A stretch of DNA of 64,000 bases, from contig OX419760.1 in assembly GCA_948567375.1 (NCBI GenBank), forward strand, positions 64,290,911 to 64,354,910. The letters are read 5' to 3'. Source of the DNA: Lunularia cruciata (Eukaryota; Streptophyta; Marchantiopsida; Lunulariales; Lunulariaceae). Made by a program: the position numbers and the translations under genes. The notes below the pieces were generated by a model that worked only from the letters and a program-made list of their open reading frames with translations, had not been told where the DNA came from and did not search any database. Position 1 is the first letter of the stretch; every line of letters begins with the position of its first letter. Of this stretch, positions 16,205 to 49,800 are shown piece after piece.

Positions 16205-16318
16205 CTCCCTTGGACCTATTGGGGCTTAGCCCCATGTTATCTTTTTTCTCTGCCTTGTACGGCTTGTTGGGGTCTTCCCATCTTTCGTTTTTCCTACGCG
16301 GTCGCCTTCTTCTCCTTG
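16205..16318 (+). mobile_element. Tail-only copy of the non-LTR family
   Basis: This is a 5'-truncated piece carrying only the conserved 3' tail. It has a hairpin around TGGGGC-TTA-GCCCCA (near 16223-16238), then CTTGTACGGCTTG, the GGGGTCTTCCC hairpin region and the terminal CCTACGCGGTCGCC at 16293-16306. No coding part remains. A short flank of unrelated DNA follows directly, with no poly(A). Confidence 0.8.
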
Positions 16319-18577: not shown

Positions 18578-18880
18578 ATGCCCACATCAATCAAGGGAGA
18601 CATGTCTACATTCTCTTCGTCGCCAAAACATGAAACCGAGGTACCGCTTGTGACCAGGACAACCAGGCGAGATGACGAGGACAGGCTGGCGAAGACACGG
18701 TCTCGCGAGGAGATAAAGTTATTAGAAACGGCCTCCGGATACTATAGTATGTTACTTCTTTCATCAGCGGATCTACTCGTGGAGCTAAGACGCGCCACTA
18801 GGAGAACTGAGTCAGAGCAGCGGATATCGAACATCTTAGATACAATAAACGAATTTTTCATACAGATATTATTGGAGTTT
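18578..18880 (+). CDS. Hypothetical charged-helix ORF, low support
   Basis: An ATG-started frame encodes about 100 residues before it runs into a retroelement tail. The first 40 residues are Ser/Thr-rich. Residues about 28-90 are strongly charged and helix-like (RRDDEDRLAKTRSREEIKLL, then LLVELRRATRRTESEQRI). I do not recognise the family. The frame continues into the non-LTR tail at 18895 and ends at 18973, so any original C-terminus is lost. It could be the remnant of an element-encoded protein, a captured exon or a chance frame. No promoter or splice signal decides between these. Confidence 0.25.
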
Positions 18881-18894
18881 AGGTTGATTTTCCT

Positions 18895-18960
18895 CTTATG
18901 TTTTTATCCTTGTACGGGCTTCATAGGTCTTCCTATCCTTCTTGTTATCCTACGCGATGG
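18895..18960 (+). mobile_element. Diverged tail of the non-LTR family
   Basis: CCTTGTACGGGCTT is followed by a perfect hairpin ATAGG-TCTT-CCTAT (18923-18936) and then CCTACGCGATGGCC. The stem bases differ from the usual GATGGG/CCCATC, but both arms have changed together. Confidence 0.7.
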
Positions 18961-19710
18961 CCTTTCGTGTTAGCAGGAGCAGCCAAGCGTCTCCTCATCT
19001 TCCTCCCGTGGAAGACAGCTGCATGCCAGAGATGTGAGTGGGAGCGATTTCTGAGCCGTCTTCTTTCCTTGTGTTTTAAGGCACAAGACATCATCCGAAT
19101 CATGGGACTAGCTATTGGGATTTCTTGAAAATAACAAAGAAAAGATGCGGAGAGGGTGTCTCCTAACAGTGCCCTTTGCTCGCAAAACATAGGAGTATGA
19201 ATAGACGAATAGAGTAGAGTGGAGTCAGTAGAGGATGAGAGGTGCTACGATGCTTTGAAGATTATCATGCAATTTGGTTCGTAGTTGTTGAAGCACAAGC
19301 ACTATTCTGAATAGTACCGAGCACCAATAGGAAAATGCCGCAACCGTAGATAAACGGTAGACTTAAGTGAATAGGTCAAACCACACAATCTCATTCTTGC
19401 CTATTCTTGTTCATGATGACACATTCGGCCATCAACAATAAAACTTGTGGCAATTAAAGAGTTTAGTACGAATTAATATAGACTCATTTGTTCTTCTAAT
19501 CTTCCATGCGTTTTATTTCTGACAAAGTACCTCCTCTTGAAATTCATGAGATCGTGAACTGACTGAAATTGCTTCATCTCTCTTAGAAACGAACTAATGT
19601 CAACGGAAACAGTTACTGTGCCCTCCCGCTGAGACAATAACATCTCCTATACTTCGGATATGATTTTGATATCTTAGATGCTGTAGGGTAATTTACTCTT
19701 AACGATACCA

Positions 19711-19788
19711 TTGGGTTCTTAACCTATCTTACCCCTATGTCTTTTCCTTGTACGGCTTGAGACGATCTTCTCGTCCTACGCGGTCACC
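19711..19788 (+). mobile_element. Diverged tail of the non-LTR family
   Basis: The stretch begins with TTGGGTTCTTAACCTA, a first hairpin with stem GGGTT/AACCT that includes one G-T pair. It continues with CCTTGTACGGCTTGA, the hairpin GACGA-TCTTC-TCGTC (19761-19775) and CTACGCGGTCACC. Both hairpins are kept although their sequences differ from the main copies. Confidence 0.7.
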
Positions 19789-19799
19789 ATTTCTAGTAT

Positions 19800-24764: not shown

Positions 24765-25188
24765 TACCATGCTTGATGATGGAGTTATATGAAGCGATGA
24801 ATTTGGTGTTTGACAGCTATTTTAGGGAGTACACAAGGGAAAATTATTATAGACGTCAAGTATATCACTCTCACTTTCATATTTCACCGCATATTTTAGA
24901 CAATGTGTATCCATTGTTCTACAAAGAGCATTAGTTGGTGCAATCTATAAGAGAGCAATCACACTAGGTGATGCTTCTTTGGATGCTCCAATTGTTTGTT
25001 GACCATATGACTTGCATAGTTCAAATATCTTAGGTGCCATAGGGCAAATTCGTCTTACACTAAGATATTTGTAGTTCAAATTCCTCTTACCAATACTATT
25101 GAGGCTTAGCCCATTTTACCCCTTTTTTTTCCTTGTATGGCTTGATGTGGTCTTCCCATCCTTCTAGTTTTCACAAGCGGTCACATTA
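24765..25188 (+). mobile_element. Non-LTR retroelement copy, 3' part, decayed
   Basis: This copy corresponds to the C-terminal third of the frame at 29879-30634 plus the tail. It starts at GGAGTTATATGAAGCGATGA and carries the TTTTAGACAA-GTGT block, the GAGAGCAATCACA block and the GACTTGCATAGTTC block. It ends with the tail (TGTATGGCTTGATG, TCTTCCCATCC, GCGGTCAC). Stops and small insertions destroy the frame. It is more decayed than the 29.9-kb copy. Confidence 0.85.
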
Positions 25189-26207: not shown

Positions 26208-26422
26208 TAATATGCTCTGCTATCTTAGGTGCGATAGAGTATATTTCTCATACAAACTTATTGGGACTTAGCTCCATGTTATTTTTTTTCTCTGTCTTGT
26301 ACGGATTGATGGGGGCTTTTGTCTCTCCCTAGTACGGATTGATGGGGGCTTTTGTCTCTCCCTAGTACGGATTGATGGGGTCTTTCCTCCTTCGTTTTTC
26401 TAACGCGGTCGCCTTTTTCTTT
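26208..26422 (+). mobile_element. Non-LTR tail copy with tandemly expanded segment
   Basis: The last codons and tail of the family are present from GCTCTGCTATCTTAGG through TTATTGGGACTTAGCTCC to CTAACGCGGTCGCC. The segment containing AGTACGGATTGATGGGGG has been multiplied about three times with a period of about 34 bases, so the hairpin-forming stretch is tandemly duplicated. The right hairpin arm in the last unit is altered (TCTTTCCTCC). Confidence 0.85.
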
Positions 26423-26840: not shown

Positions 26841-26930
26841 TGTAGCCAGCAAAGGCAAGCTAGGGGTCTTTCATGCAGAGAGTTAGCAAGTCGGAAGAGC
26901 CGATAAGAGTAGAGAGAGATTTGACTGATT

Positions 26931-27788
26931 ATGGCAGAAATGGTGGGAAGAGGTAGGAATCTAGTTTTGCTGTGCGTGGTTTTGGCCTTGGCTGCAGCGT
27001 TGCCTCAGTGTCAATCATATGATACCACGAGGTTTAGTACTACAGAGTCTAAAAAGAAGAACAGGAGCGTGGATCTGAGGAGAGGATTTCGACCTCGCAG
27101 GGGTGGAAAATACCCTGATCGATTCTCACAAGGAGCGACTACTTTGGCAGGTGATGAGTTCACTACAAATATGCCTGCGGTGTACAGAAATCCTGAATTC
27201 GTGAACCATCATCGCGGGCTTATTGCCCGTAAGCAGAGAGTTCTTCAATCCGTGCAATCGCAGGAGTCAGGGATTGAAGCAAAGGCCTGGCCTACCGAGT
27301 TTACTATCAGCTTCAACACCAAATGGGGACATGTAACAGGATTTATGGCATATGACTGGGCTAATCAGCGACAGGCAGTATACCACGGGGCGAATTCCAC
27401 CTTCTGCCAGAACTTTGGCACTGATGAAGCCTGTCAAATGCTGGAGGTCCCTAGTGGAACTTACGTTTACATTCCTTCGAGGAAGGAATGCTCCTTGACG
27501 GTTGCAGGTGTTGGATCCTTGCCACCTGAATGGACCGTGCACTCTGAATACGCTGGGGAAGAACTAGTGCCGGAAATTGGACTTTGCAGGACATTCGCAT
27601 TTCCTCCTACCGCCCATGTCTGGGGCGAGACTGTGGTCGGAGCATTGCCTTGCATTTTCATTTTCCCCGATCCTTCTATGACTTACTACTTCAATCCACA
27701 AACATTTAAAGTTGGGACACCCGAGGAGAAATATTTTGACTTCCCCGATTATTGTTTTGAGCCCTCCGGTTCAGTGGAGTCACAGTAA
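26931..27788 (+). CDS. Secreted At4g14100-like protein, intronless
   Basis: A 285-residue intact frame with the best coding signal in the window. Residues 1-29 form a signal peptide: Arg-rich start, hydrophobic core LVLLCVVLALAAALP, and cleavage probably after CQS. Residues 40-105 are basic and probably disordered, with dibasic sites. Residues about 119-277 match the layout of the plant At4g14100-like family, sometimes labelled 'transferring glycosyl groups' without biochemical proof. The landmarks are WPTEFTISF, a YDWANQR block, W201, GLCRTF, VWGE and a terminal PDYCF. Six cysteines in the domain (159, 168, 187, 219, 241, 275) suggest disulfides. N44 and N155 are possible N-glycosylation sites. 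The basic N-terminal linker is longer than I expect for the family. The start is the first ATG after the TATA box. It is probably apoplastic or in the secretory pathway. The reaction is unknown. Confidence 0.85.
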   Translation: MAEMVGRGRNLVLLCVVLALAAALPQCQSYDTTRFSTTESKKKNRSVDLRRGFRPRRGGKYPDRFSQGATTLAGDEFTTNMPAVYRNPEFVNHHRGLIARKQRVLQSVQSQESGIEAKAWPTEFTISFNTKWGHVTGFMAYDWANQRQAVYHGANSTFCQNFGTDEACQMLEVPSGTYVYIPSRKECSLTVAGVGSLPPEWTVHSEYAGEELVPEIGLCRTFAFPPTAHVWGETVVGALPCIFIFPDPSMTYYFNPQTFKVGTPEEKYFDFPDYCFEPSGSVESQ

Positions 27789-29110: not shown

Positions 29111-30622
29111 TTACGTTGGTATTCTTGTGTTTTAAGCAATCAAATTAAATAACTTATATGTAGTAATCTCATATGTTTATTGATGCAATTTGTTTATCAC
29201 AAAGAGAAAAGAAGGGCGACCACCGCGTAGAAAACACGAAGGATGGGTTTATTTATCAATGTTTCATGAGTCATGTGTTATGCCATTTATATAATAATTC
29301 TTTTTTGATCATTCTCTCTCCCCAATCTCTTCTTTACTCTCAAATATTTTACTTTACAGTATTACTTGTCTTCGGTAGAGAAATATAAGAAGGTACTCAT
29401 ACAGAAAGACAATTACCTCCGTAGATTAGCTCTTGATGCATTTAGATATTTATCGCATGGAGGATGTACTAACATCGGATATAAGATTAAGATCAAACAT
29501 GTAAGATCCAATGACACTTGTTAGATCAAAGATTGAGAACTAAAATATTTATGAAATGATTCAAATGACCTTTTCATTATCATGATATAATGAAATCTGC
29601 CGAAATGAGACGTCAATGTTGATTTGTTCAAGTGCTAGAAGTGTCGAGGGATCTGAGAAGTAAATTTTAGAGATAATGAAAGATCATCCTTTAAATGAGA
29701 AGAAGTTGAGAAGTAGACGGATAGGAATAGACCTCTTCAATCCTTTTAGGGTTTTCCTCTTCTCCAAAATAACTTTCTTCTTCTCTTTTTCAAATACGAT
29801 TTGAAAAGTTTGCTTGCCTCTTCCCGAGCAAACCTCTTGTGAAAAGTTTCCAGCAAACTTTCCACAAGAAATCTACAAATGTCAATCCCTCACCAAACTA
29901 GCTACTTTCTCTACAGGATGAGGTTTAGCCTAGGTTTGGTCCACCCATCTACATCTTCATTACTCACTTGTGAGTGTGGTTCTACACTAGATGCAGCAGC
30001 GGTCCACATGACACGATGTCCTTTTGGAGGATAGAAGATAGCTACCCATGATGCCATTAGGGGCATAGTGTTTGTTATGGCACAAGAGAGTGGATACTTG
30101 GCTTGGAGAGAGCGTGCGTATGCTTTGCAGATGACACATGTCAAGGCAGACTTATATTTGGTTCGAGATGATCAGGTGACAGCAGCGGATGTCGTGGTTA
30201 TTGACCCTACGTGGGATACAGTTTTGGAGGGAGTGATTACACATCCCCCTGGATGGGCGGCGAGTGCAGCAGCATGTCGCAAGGTCTCCAAGTATAGGAG
30301 CATGCAACAAGGTCACCTCTTTGTTCCTCTAGCCTTGGAGTTATATGGAGCGATGGACACGGCATTTGACACATTTGTTAGGGAGTGTGTGAGAGCTTAT
30401 CGTGTTAGGCATCAGGGGGTACCACTCTCACTCTCATACTTTGTAGCATATTTTAGACAACGTGTGTCCATTGCTCTACAAAGTGCAGTGGCTGGTGCAA
30501 TCCATATGAGAGCAATCACATTAGGTGATGTTTCTTTGGATGCTCCAGTTGTGTGTAGACCGTACGACTTGCATAGCTCGGATATCTTCTGTGCGGTAGT
30601 GCAGATTTCTCATATAGACTCT

Positions 30623-30640
30623 ATTGGGACTTAGCCCAAT
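30623..30640 (+). other. Tail hairpin 1 of the non-LTR family
   Basis: ATTGGG-ACTTAG-CCCAAT is a perfect six-pair stem. The stop codon of the element frame (TAG, 30632-30634) lies in its loop. Related copies have TGGGGC-TTA-GCCCCA. Confidence 0.7.
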
Positions 30641-30672
30641 GTTACCTTTTTTGTCTCTCCCTTGTACGGCTT

Positions 30673-30689
30673 GATGGGGTCTTCCCATC
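30673..30689 (+). other. Tail hairpin 2 of the non-LTR family
   Basis: GATGGG-GTCTT-CCCATC is a perfect six-pair stem placed between CTTGTACGGCTT and the terminal CCTACGC. It is the structure kept by paired changes in the 18.9-kb and 19.7-kb tails. Confidence 0.75.
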
Positions 30690-30779
30690 CTCGTTTTTCC
30701 TACGCAATTGCCTTTTTCTCAACAAACCGCAGGGTTCCTAACCTACAATCAAGATTTAGTGATCAAGAAGCTTAGTGAG

Positions 30780-33014: not shown

Positions 33015-33121
33015 ATCAGTGTACTTTCTTGTCGTACCAACGGCGTGAGTACACGTGTACTAGAATGAGGCGTTTAATCAAAGAGGGGGTCGATTTACAA
33101 TTCCCTAACATAAAATGGAAA

Positions 33122-33661
33122 AAAGGCGACCGCATAGGAAAAACGAAGGATGGGAAGTCCGGAGGAAAAACGCATAGGAAAAGCGAAGGATGGGAAGACC
33201 CATTAAGCCGTACAAAGGAAAGACAAAAAAGGTAACATGGGGCTAAGCCCCAATAGAGTCTGTATGAGAAATTTGCCCTACCGCACCTAAGATAACCGAG
33301 CTATACAAGTCGTACAGTCTACGCACAATTGGAGCATCCGAAGAAACATCATCTAATGTGATTGCTCTCCTATGGATTGCACCAGCCACTGCCCTCTGTA
33401 GAACAATGGACACACGTTGTCTAAAATATGTTACAAAGTATGAGAATGAGAGTGGTACCTCTGACACCTAACATGATAAGCTCTCGTGCACTCCTTGACA
33501 AATGTGTCAAATGCCGTGTTCATCGCCTTGGAGTTATATGGAGATATAACTCCAAGGTTAGAGGAACAAAGAGATGACCTCGCTGCATGTACCTATACTT
33601 GGAGACCTTGCGACCTGCTGCTGCACTCGCCGCCCATCCAAGGGGATGGGTAATCACTCCT
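33122..33661 (-). mobile_element. Non-LTR retroelement copy, reverse orientation
   Basis: Read on the minus strand, this has the C-terminal coding part of the family (ends of the LFVPL-LELY block, VSIVLQRAVAGAI, LDDVSSDAP) and the full tail. Tail hairpin 1 is TGGGGC-TTA-GCCCCA (33238-33252) and hairpin 2 is ATGGG-TCTT-CCCAT (33190-33203). The tail end is partly duplicated (two GAAGGATGGGAAG blocks at about 33146 and 33186). The coding part is broken at 33526-33557 by a palindrome and by frameshifts. The 5' edge is near 33661, where another piece of the family begins. Confidence 0.9.
33526..33557. repeat. Perfect 14-base inverted repeat inside the element copy
   Basis: CCTTGGAGTTATAT, a four-base loop GGAG, then ATATAACTCCAAGG. 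The left arm is the sense version of element sequence (CCTTGGAGTTATATGGAG) in a copy that is otherwise antisense. A small piece has therefore been copied back in inverted orientation. Confidence 0.95.
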
Positions 33662-35613: not shown

Positions 35614-35752
35614 TAAAAGGCGACCGCGTAAAAAAACGAAGGATGGGAAGACCCTATCAAACCGTACAAAGGAGAGAAAAAAGTAACATGGGGCTAAGCC
35701 CTAACAGAGTCTATATGAGAAATCTGCCCTCCGACAAAGATCATATGATCTA
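35614..35752 (-). mobile_element. Tail copy of the non-LTR family, reverse orientation
   Basis: AAAAGGCGACCGCGTA at the left edge is the end of the tail. It is followed by GAAGGATGGGAAGACCC, CCGTACAAAGGAGAG, CATGGGGCTAAGCCC and AGAGTCTATATGAGAAAT. Only the tail and the last few codons remain. Each hairpin carries one mispair here. Confidence 0.85.
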
Positions 35753-46894: not shown

Positions 46895-49800
46895 TCCACC
46901 ATATCATCTCAAAGAGCAACATTGAACGTTGAGCAAGTTCATGCAAAACTTGAACTTCTCAACAAGAACAAGTTTAGTCAACATATCAGCTGCATTTACC
47001 TTTGTGGAAATCTTTTGCAAATTGATCTCACCATTTGTCACAACTTCCTTAATAAAATGATGTCTTAAATCAATATGCTTTGTCCTTGAATGATATAGTT
47101 GATTCTTGGCCAAGTGAATAGCGCATTGGCTATCACAAAAAAGTGTGGAATTCATGTTAGGGAGTCCTACATCCTTGGCTAATCTTTGTAGCCATATTGC
47201 CTCTTTGGCAGCCTCAATTGTTGCCATATATTCTGCCTCTATAGTAGAAAGAGCAATAGTAGATTAGAGAGTAGACTTCTAACTTACTGCACCATCAACA
47301 AGTGTAAAAACAAATCTTGTTGTAGACCTTCTCTTATCCAAGTCTCCAGAAAAATCCAAATCTACATACCCTATAATTCATCTTTCTCGGTCCTTCTCCA
47401 CATCAAAGGTCATGCCAATATTTATAGTCCCTTTCAAGTAACAAAGTATCCACTTCACAACTTCCCAGTATTGTTTCCATGGATTTGCCATGTATCTACT
47501 CACCATGTCCATAGCATATGAGATGTCTGGTCTAGTGCAAACCATAGTATACATTCAATTCCCAACAGCACTAGCATAAGGAATATTTGACATTACTTTT
47601 CTCTCCTCATTTGATGGACATTGCTCTTATGATATCCTAAAATGACTTGCCATTGGAGTGTTTATTGGTTTTGCTTTCTGCATGCCAAATAAAGCAAGTA
47701 ATTTTTCCAAATATCTTCTTTGAGATACCCTTAACTTTCCCTTGCTCCTCCTATCTTGGTGGATTTCAATCCCAAGCACCATCTTTGAAGAACCAAAGTC
47801 CTTCATATCAAACTCCTTACCAAGTTGTGCTTTTAATTTCCACCTCAACCATATTGTACGCAGCAATCAACATATCATCCACATATAGTACCAAGATGAT
47901 TAAATCAAATATATTAGGTCCATGTAGCTTCTTGAGGTACACACAAAAATCTGATTCACTTTTGTTATATACATGCCTCAACATGAAAGCATCAGATTTC
48001 ATGTACCAAAGTCTTGAGCTTTGCTTTAGTCCATATCAAGACTTTGTAACATGCAAACTAAGTTCTGGTTCCTTGGTACCACAAAACCTTCATGTTGATG
48101 CATGTAAGTCTCCTCCTCCAATTCTCCATGTATAAAACCAGTTGTAACATTTAGTTGCTCCAACTCCAAGTTATGCAATGCAACTATTGCCAATATTTCA
48201 CAAATTGAAGAGATTTTTACCAATGGTGTAAAAATCTCATTGAAGTCAATACTTTCTTTTTGGCTATAACCCATTGCTACAAGCCTTGCTTTGTATTGAT
48301 CTCCACCTGATTTTGGAAGTCCTTCCTTCCTCTGGAATATCCATCTACAACCAATTCCTTCTTTCCCATAGGCAATTTTTCAAGTCTCCAAGTTTGGTTC
48401 TTGGCGAGAGACTTCATCTCCTCTTCCATTGCACAATGTCACTTTTGACACTCTTGATCTTTCATTGCCTCTTCATATGAAGAAGGCTCACCATTCTCTG
48501 TAAGAATTGCATAAGCAACAAACAAATCATCAAATCTCTTTGGAGGCCTTCTATCACTATTTGGATATCTACACTCATGAATCACTTTTGGACTTTGCTC
48601 TTCTAATTGTTCACTTGGTAGATCTATAAGAGGTGAAATGTCTTCATTTCAAAAATAAATATCTATTTTTAACAAAATCTGACTGAATTTGTTTTTTCTT
48701 TTCTTTTGCTACACAAATAGTCTTCATTGTACTAGTCTCATTAAAAACTACATCCTTACTAACAACCAGACAATACCTATCTAGATCCCATAATCTATAT
48801 CCCTTTGTATCCTTCTCATATCCCAAGAATATACATTTTCTAGATTTAGGATCTAACTTTGTCCTTTGTTCTTGTTGAATATGAACATAAGCTATGCATC
48901 CAAATACTCTAAGTGAAGAGTAATCGACATGCCTATCTGTCCATTTTTCCATAGGTGTCTTACACTCAATAGCAGTAGAGGGAGAAATGTTTACCAAATG
49001 ACAAGCCATATTTATAGCTTCTGCCCAAAAATTCTTCTCCAATCCGGCATTGCTTAACATACTTCTTGCTTTCTCCAAGAGTGTACAATTTATCCACTCT
49101 AGCATACACCATAATGTTGAGGAGTACATGGTAAAGTGATGAATTATTTCTTCACTCTTACAATATCTATCAAACTCTCCAAATTTTTATCCTCCACCAT
49201 TATCAGATCTCAAACACTTCAATTTTCTTCCAGTTTGTTTCTCCATCATCACCTTCCATTGTTTAAAGATAGAGAAGACCTCTGATTATGCTTCATGTTG
49301 TAGACCCATACTCTCCTTGAGTAATCACCAACCAAAGATACAAAATATAATGCTCCAGATTTTTGAGCTATAGGTCCCAAACATCAAAATGCACATAGGC
49401 TAAAATTCCCTTTGTGCAATGAACTCCTGTGGAAAAGCTTACCCTCCATTGCTTTCCTATTACACAATGCTCACAAAATTTTAACTTACAACTTTGGTAG
49501 TTGTTGCTTGGACAATTAACTTAGACCCCTTTCACTCATATGACCCAAATGTAGGTGCTTTAACTGAGTAAGATCTTTGGGATCTTCATTTTCAGAAATA
49601 GTACTTGCCACTCCTCTAGTGGTGGTCTCTCCAACCAGCTCATAAAGATTTCATATCTTCTTGCTCTTCATTACAACCAATGCTCCTTTTGTTACCTTGA
49701 GTGTTCCATTTTCTGCTTCCCACCTCCAACCATTTGAGTCCAAAGTGCCTAGTGATATCAAATTCTTCCTTAACTCAAGAACATGCCTCACATTAGCAAG

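Follow-up and report, generated by a model that had tools for sequence, protein, structure and literature searches.

A two-hairpin 3′ tail as the probable recognition tag of an R2-like non-LTR retrotransposon in the land plant Lunularia cruciata

The R2 protein binds the structured 3′ untranslated region (UTR) of its RNA and starts copying at its end (PMC10499050, PMC12222951). For R2Tg, the last 67 nt of the 3′ UTR were described as sufficient for integration, and sequence changes in the second stem were tolerated if the structure was kept (PMC12222951). At the protein level, a PD-(D/E)XK ... KX2KY pattern has been described for R2-type endonucleases, and a CCHC knuckle (CX2-3CX7-8HX4C) lies before the endonuclease in R2-group elements (PMC5678591). 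Reports of R2 come from six animal phyla and those of Utopia from three supergroups of eukaryotes (PMC4640811). In a 2022 review, plant LINEs comprise only L1 and RTE (PMC9033089), and among the top matches listed from the open-access literature, we found no R2-like element in land plants.

Here, we analysed a 64,000-nt stretch of the Lunularia cruciata genome (contig OX419760.1, positions 64,290,911 to 64,354,910; hereafter the window), in which a first-pass annotation had marked a two-hairpin tail. Every hairpin that it quoted was found in the sequence where it had been placed (Table 1); in GGGTT-CTT-AACCT the first pair is G-T. The tail totals about 95 nt, and the nhmmer tail model matches 30603-30716 at the marked copy. 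A search of the whole window on both strands gave 16 tail matches above the inclusion threshold, some of which are pieces of one tail, and the reversed window gave none at E up to 1. The tail is thus a dense repeat in the window. The double tail on the minus strand, read from 33300 to 33121, possibly reflects template jumping or a nested insertion. In another copy, a 33-nt unit repeated 3.1 times (26284-26385) covers the region from GTACGG to hairpin 2. The window also holds a 287-aa stop-to-stop ORF starting with LIMAEMVGRG (26925-27788), for which Pfam gave nothing up to E 1, and on the minus strand an ORF (48644-49186) with a retroviral polymerase SH3-like domain (PF25597, E 1.7e-31), presumably as in Copia-type elements.

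Table 1. Tail copies in the window and parts of the marked element (window coordinates)
Feature	Position	Strand	Description and basis
Last 199 codons of the element's only ORF	30035-30634	+	ORF list, protein matches, alignment with 5 full-length copies
Hairpin 1	30623-30640	+	ATTGGG-ACTTAG-CCCAAT in the window copy; sequence, shuffles, predicted fold
Linker	30641-30672	+	Family-specific T/C-rich part and conserved CTTGTACGGCTT; family consensus comparison
Hairpin 2	30673-30689	+	GATGGG-GTCTT-CCCATC; stem identical in 3/3 family consensuses
3′ terminal tract	30690-30716	+	Element end, without poly-A; copies diverge beyond, nhmmer
Tail copy	16214-16310	+	nhmmer
Diverged tail copy, first-pass example	18853-18965	+	ATAGG-TCTT-CCTAT at 18923-18936; sequence, nhmmer
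Diverged tail copy, first-pass example	19693-19791	+	GGGTT-CTT-AACCT at 19713-19725, GACGA-TCTTC-TCGTC at 19761-19775; shorter beyond hairpin 2; sequence, nhmmer
Diverged tail copy	25079-25187	+	nhmmer tail model
Tail copy with tandem repeat	26243-26417	+	nhmmer
Very short, weak tail-end match	29219-29247	-	nhmmer E 0.0029
Tail copy, then directly a second partial tail	33121-33300	-	nhmmer
Tail copy	35615-35725	-	nhmmer

Both hairpins are real and conserved. With a perfect hairpin defined by a stem of at least 6 and a loop of 3-6, the marked tail forms two that do not overlap, and none of 5000 dinucleotide shuffles gave two, for the main tail and the window tail alike; one perfect hairpin arose in 1.5% and 2.2% of the shuffles, respectively. 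In the window background, 3 of 633 tiles of 101 bases contained two perfect hairpins. This signal is local, since the folding energy of the whole tail is ordinary (z -1.25, -1.14, -0.39 and -0.66 for four tails). The minimum-energy structure of 18870-18975 contains neither hairpin 1 nor the hairpin 2 quoted for that copy, and the consensus fold of 33 tails (RNAalifold) predicts the core of hairpin 1 and lacks hairpin 2. Across copies, hairpin 1 commonly takes the form TGGGGC-TTA-GCCCCA, from which the marked tail departs by two uncompensated changes, pairing only in a shifted register. The TCTT core of the loop is well kept, as had been claimed, with mismatch frequencies of 0.02, 0.10, 0.02 and 0.04 in 83 old copies. 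A long-range closing helix joining the ORF end and the 3′ end, seen in the fold of the full-length copy L061, was considered and rejected; judged by eye, its strands lose complementarity in old families.

We compared the consensuses of three tail families, built from 49 main, 40 B and 39 A copies. Their non-stem columns differ at 16 of 70 positions and their stem columns at 1 of 24 (Fisher p 0.06), the sole differing stem column being a gap from the shorter hairpin 2 loop of family A. This loop is one base shorter and its stem is kept. Our argument for a function of the tail is based on this retention of the stems while the linkers diverge, and not on covariation. The sequence itself also seems to matter, as is suggested by the conservation of the non-stem CTTGTACGGCTT (identical in all three consensuses), of TCTT and of the CGCGGTCGCC end.

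The tail belongs to a non-LTR retrotransposon, as the first-pass annotation had proposed. The element is 3.7 kb long with a single ORF, and the copy in the window is 5′-truncated. Six full-length copies (L061-L066), picked for long open frames and fetched with about 8 kb each, are 98.8-99.6% identical pairwise, and in every one of them the frame measures 1100-1111 aa from stop to stop; counted from the likely first Met, the L061 ORF has about 1055 aa. Pfam detects a reverse transcriptase in this ORF (RVT_1, E 7.8e-15), with no match to an AP endonuclease family or a zinc finger at E up to 1. By eye, a zinc finger-like CPVCHRRFTSQGVKTHVGRMH stands near the N-terminus. Among PDB sequences, the three best matches to the element's reverse transcriptase are R2 sequences (E 5.6e-09 to 7.3e-07). 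The C-terminus carries ADLYL, DVVVTDP and KVSKY in this order, which resembles the PD-(D/E)XK ... KX2KY order of R2-type endonucleases with P replaced by A. The alignment of this part with R2 scores 3.8 bits only, and a PDB profile search with the C-terminus alone returned no nuclease at E up to 10. Cysteines and a histidine also occur in the order C, C, H, C, with the deviating spacing C-x1-C-x9-H-x3-C (found by eye; one pattern search was unmatched). We describe the C-terminal motifs as R2-type endonuclease-like, and the endonuclease activity as putative. The class first assigned to the element appears right in outline, and probably more interesting than first claimed.

In the genome (566 Mb, 74 contigs), the element is very abundant. 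The C-terminal protein piece of the window gave 16,136 first-look candidates, which are unverified as copies, and from them 150 scored matches including itself; its identity to the 149 others is 86-89%. Three mutually exclusive exact tail patterns occur at 1218, 377 and 150 places. Local duplications are suggested by the first 100 places listed, among which tail variants return unchanged 12 times at intervals of 36-82 kb on contig C1 (12.66-13.41 Mb) and 4 times at intervals of about 230 kb on contig C2 (2.79-3.47 Mb). Chlorophyll-binding and LOB-domain genes identify the genome as that of a green plant, most likely a land plant since LOB genes are specific to plants. As a separate observation, 43 of the 59 LOB-domain matches in the genome lie on contig C8 between 42 and 64.5 Mb, many in a dense series.

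Copies share the 3′ end and diverge beyond it, with flanks that differ from copy to copy. The tail is conserved at the 3′ terminus of separately inserted copies. We examined 39 relatives of the tail found at 18.9 kb in the window; a target duplication of at least 7 nt lies within reach in 20 of them, compared with 3.65 expected from mispaired flanks; three of the duplication-bearing tails (L104, L106 and L122) are doubtful by position. In the six full-length copies, where duplications were counted without a control, they measure 13, 14 and 10 nt in L063, L064 and L066 (located upstream of the aligned 5′ end by 53, 18 and 12 nt) and 7 and 10 nt in L062 and L065, with none in L061. For 14 of the 39 tails (L087, L098, L100-L103, L105, L111-L114, L116, L121 and L123), the 5′ duplicate, located by eye, ends inside hairpin 1 or within about 20 nt of it, and the insert is therefore roughly tail-sized. 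Insertion is thus dispersed, with short target duplications, and is not confined to a single 28S rDNA site; site specificity is absent among the copies examined. At L062, an older relative, about 82% identical, carries a main-family element within its hairpin 1. This insertion has a 7-bp duplication, and downstream of it lie two further segments of tail. Self-targeted tandem insertion was considered for this locus and dropped; the copy lies inside the hairpin 1 of the older element, flanked by its duplication.

We propose that an R2-like non-LTR retrotransposon probably uses the marked region as its 3′ recognition tag. The first-pass annotation had drawn an analogy with the structured 3′ end that is bound by the R2 reverse transcriptase, and the analogy appears apt, as the closest solved relatives of the reverse transcriptase found here are R2 proteins. 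The one ORF provides a zinc finger-like N-terminus, the reverse transcriptase and the C-terminal endonuclease-like motifs, and by this analogy the reverse transcriptase would bind the tail of its own RNA, with its two hairpins, conserved GUACGG linker and fixed 3′ end. The protein would then nick DNA at weakly specified sites, and cDNA synthesis would be primed from the nick at the 3′ end of the tail. The expected outcome is 5′-truncated copies with short target duplications, some of them little more than the tail. We infer that the folded form is important for this recognition.

The tail could also be recognised mainly by its primary sequence, with the hairpins being secondary, a reading that is partly compatible with a recognition tag and that we consider rather unlikely in itself. 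Sequence conservation alone could explain the tail, because no covariation exceeds the controls (see below) and the consensus fold misses hairpin 2; the stems, like the non-stem CTTGTACGGCTT, are identical between family consensuses. Moreover, the ORF stop TAG (30632-30634) sits inside the hairpin 1 loop, and coding constraint explains part of hairpin 1 since this hairpin overlaps the last codons and the stop. Against this stand the improbability of two perfect hairpins by chance and the family A loop, which lost one base while its stem was kept.

A role of the tail in the formation or stability of the RNA 3′ end, and not in recognition by the reverse transcriptase, seems improbable. It would agree with the lack of poly-A and with the fixed 3′ end of the element, where other copies end in CCTACGCGGTCGCC followed by a pyrimidine run that varies between copies, but R2 proteins are known to bind such a structured 3′ end (PMC12222951, PMC10499050).

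The first-pass annotation had gone further and read the compensatory changes in diverged tails as evidence of selection on folding. That folding selection is proven in this way we consider very improbable. Single examples can be found, namely L069 and, in the window, the tails at 18.9 and 19.7 kb, but those of the window are most easily seen as independent C-to-T and G-to-A decay of dead copies. Caution is needed here, since double decay of a G-C pair (G-to-A and C-to-T) yields A-U, and the changes of decaying copies on G-C stem arms thereby mimic compensation without selection.

For the covariation tests, 168 tails were collected. Two with gaps were dropped, as were 21 that showed no difference from another tail in the region used, leaving 145 distinct copies. 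Under a tree-based null, a simplified version of R-scape in which substitutions are redistributed on the tree, no stem pair was significant in these copies (best E 79; all hairpin 2 pairs E >1000); this test is conservative, as the strongest column pair of any kind reached only E 0.22. With column shuffling, which ignores relatedness, hairpin 1 had 15 paired double changes versus 5.8 expected in the 145 copies (reached by 0 of 1000 shuffles) and 15 versus 9.4 in the 83 old copies (26 of 1000). When 11 of these 83 were dropped as upstream-truncated, the remaining 72 had 12 versus 7.9 (136 of 2000 shuffles). In the same 72 copies, 68 of 2000 shuffles attained the observed share of paired cells in hairpin 1, while an excess was present for double changes of any kind (25 versus 14; 1 of 2000). 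The filter is crude: it kept some copies that look truncated (L087, L088, L115, L119 and L122) and dropped some with an intact hairpin 1 (L110, L114, L116 and L123). In the predicted hairpin 1 core of the RNAalifold consensus (33 copies), 4 of 5 pairs show a double change. Hairpin 2 had no excess by column shuffling, with 2 paired double changes versus 2.6 expected.

In a stricter test, exact patterns were searched in the whole genome with one arm fixed to the changed base and the other arm free, the hairpin 1 counts resting on the first 100 of 377, 1218 and 150 places in chromosome order. In hairpin 2, a change of G93 to A is carried by 89 copies, all of which were listed; CCC was unchanged in 62 and the compensating T stood alone in 5, while T alone occurred in 9/89 at a neighbouring non-partner and in 1/89 at another; the compensating base is thus no commoner than the same change at a non-partner. 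For hairpin 1 with A45, the partner T53 was the sole T in 12 copies, versus 1, 3 and 4 at other positions (from the first 100 places listed, of which 14 were collapsed as two local duplication groups; and uncollapsed T53 alone counts 15). In the control with A44, whose partner is 54, T53 was again the commonest (10/21 versus 12/20 for A45, p 0.54), and the true partner T54 was not enriched (4/21 versus 8/27). T53 therefore looks like a common variant of older lineages. There may nevertheless be a small real compensation effect at pair 45-53, given that T53 occurs in 12/20 copies with A45 and 8/27 with G45 (p 0.07; duplicates were left uncollapsed for G45 and A44, and the G45 pattern covered only the TTTTA context, the A45 and A44 patterns GTTA as well). 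Counted by eye among 100 listed places, the T47-A51 pair of hairpin 1 and the broken C47-A51 are equally common, with about 7 and about 8 cases.

Altogether, the larger alignment yields no excess of covariation for hairpin 2 and, with relatedness and position effects taken into account, none for hairpin 1, the outcome that the first-pass annotation had named as refuting its claim; selection on folding is thus not borne out by compensatory changes, as the signals of hairpin 1 also appear at a non-partner control. The power of these tests is limited because the copies are mostly dead insertions that decay individually. A lack of covariation does not imply a lack of folded function, since dead copies are unselected and the source families kept their stems unchanged.

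Finally, the element could be a plant L1 or RTE of the ordinary kind that has a stem-loop in its tail, like one L1 lineage of monocots. This would fit the review of plant LINEs as L1 and RTE only (PMC9033089) and the UCU that the loop here shares with the plant L1 3′ stem-loop (PMC3747384), but is very unlikely given the R2 proteins as best PDB matches, the C-terminal endonuclease-like motifs, and the lack of both poly-A and an AP-endonuclease match at E up to 1.

Returning to the R2-like recognition tag, we consider an R2-like LINE in a land plant a more interesting and more surprising result than the claimed covariation of its hairpins, as the R2 type is best known from animals. Tentatively, and with real reservation, we suggest that an R2-group LINE with a restriction-like endonuclease has multiplied in a land plant genome, where it would now number thousands of dispersed copies and use a compact two-hairpin RNA tag of about 95 nt, with some insertions being little more than this tag. 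If the R2-group placement is true, the lineage became established in land plants, lost strict site specificity and kept a compact 3′ tag. Plants would then offer a natural system for studying how reverse transcriptases of this kind locate their RNA and select DNA sites, a question that is current since tools for gene insertion are being made from R2 proteins (PMC12222951).

Among known systems, R2 (R2Tg, R2Bm) shares with the L. cruciata element a single ORF, the reverse transcriptase similarity, the order of endonuclease-like motifs and the lack of poly-A. The 3′ end of R2Tg is likewise compact, with two double-stranded regions and a linker (PMC12222951). The likeness of the tails is in their general plan only (stem, linker, stem, single-stranded end), and our RNA-level comparison with R2 tails consisted of a search of Rfam 15, with no match at the gathering score within the window. 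While R2 uses one 28S rDNA site, the element described here is dispersed. The Utopia, NeSL, R4 and HERO clades have a restriction-like endonuclease, of which the element here has a putative counterpart, and HERO includes non-specific elements (PMC4640811). Dualen/RandI of Chlamydomonas is another element of the green lineage with a restriction-like endonuclease (PMC4640811, PMC3747384), which here is putative, from motifs; its host is a green alga and it also has an AP endonuclease, whereas none was found here. Structured tails of plant LINEs are not new as such, as a plant L1 3′ stem-loop is known: in a monocot L1 lineage (LINE1-1_ZM, ZmSINE2), a conserved 3′-terminal hairpin has a UCU loop as here, but these elements belong to the L1 clade and compensatory changes were reported for them (PMC3747384), which is not borne out in L. 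cruciata. BLAG of the German cockroach has an R2-like protein and a dispersed, non-site-specific insertion, as here (PMC7650587), but it resides at low copy number in an animal, whereas the element described here has thousands of candidate copies in a plant.
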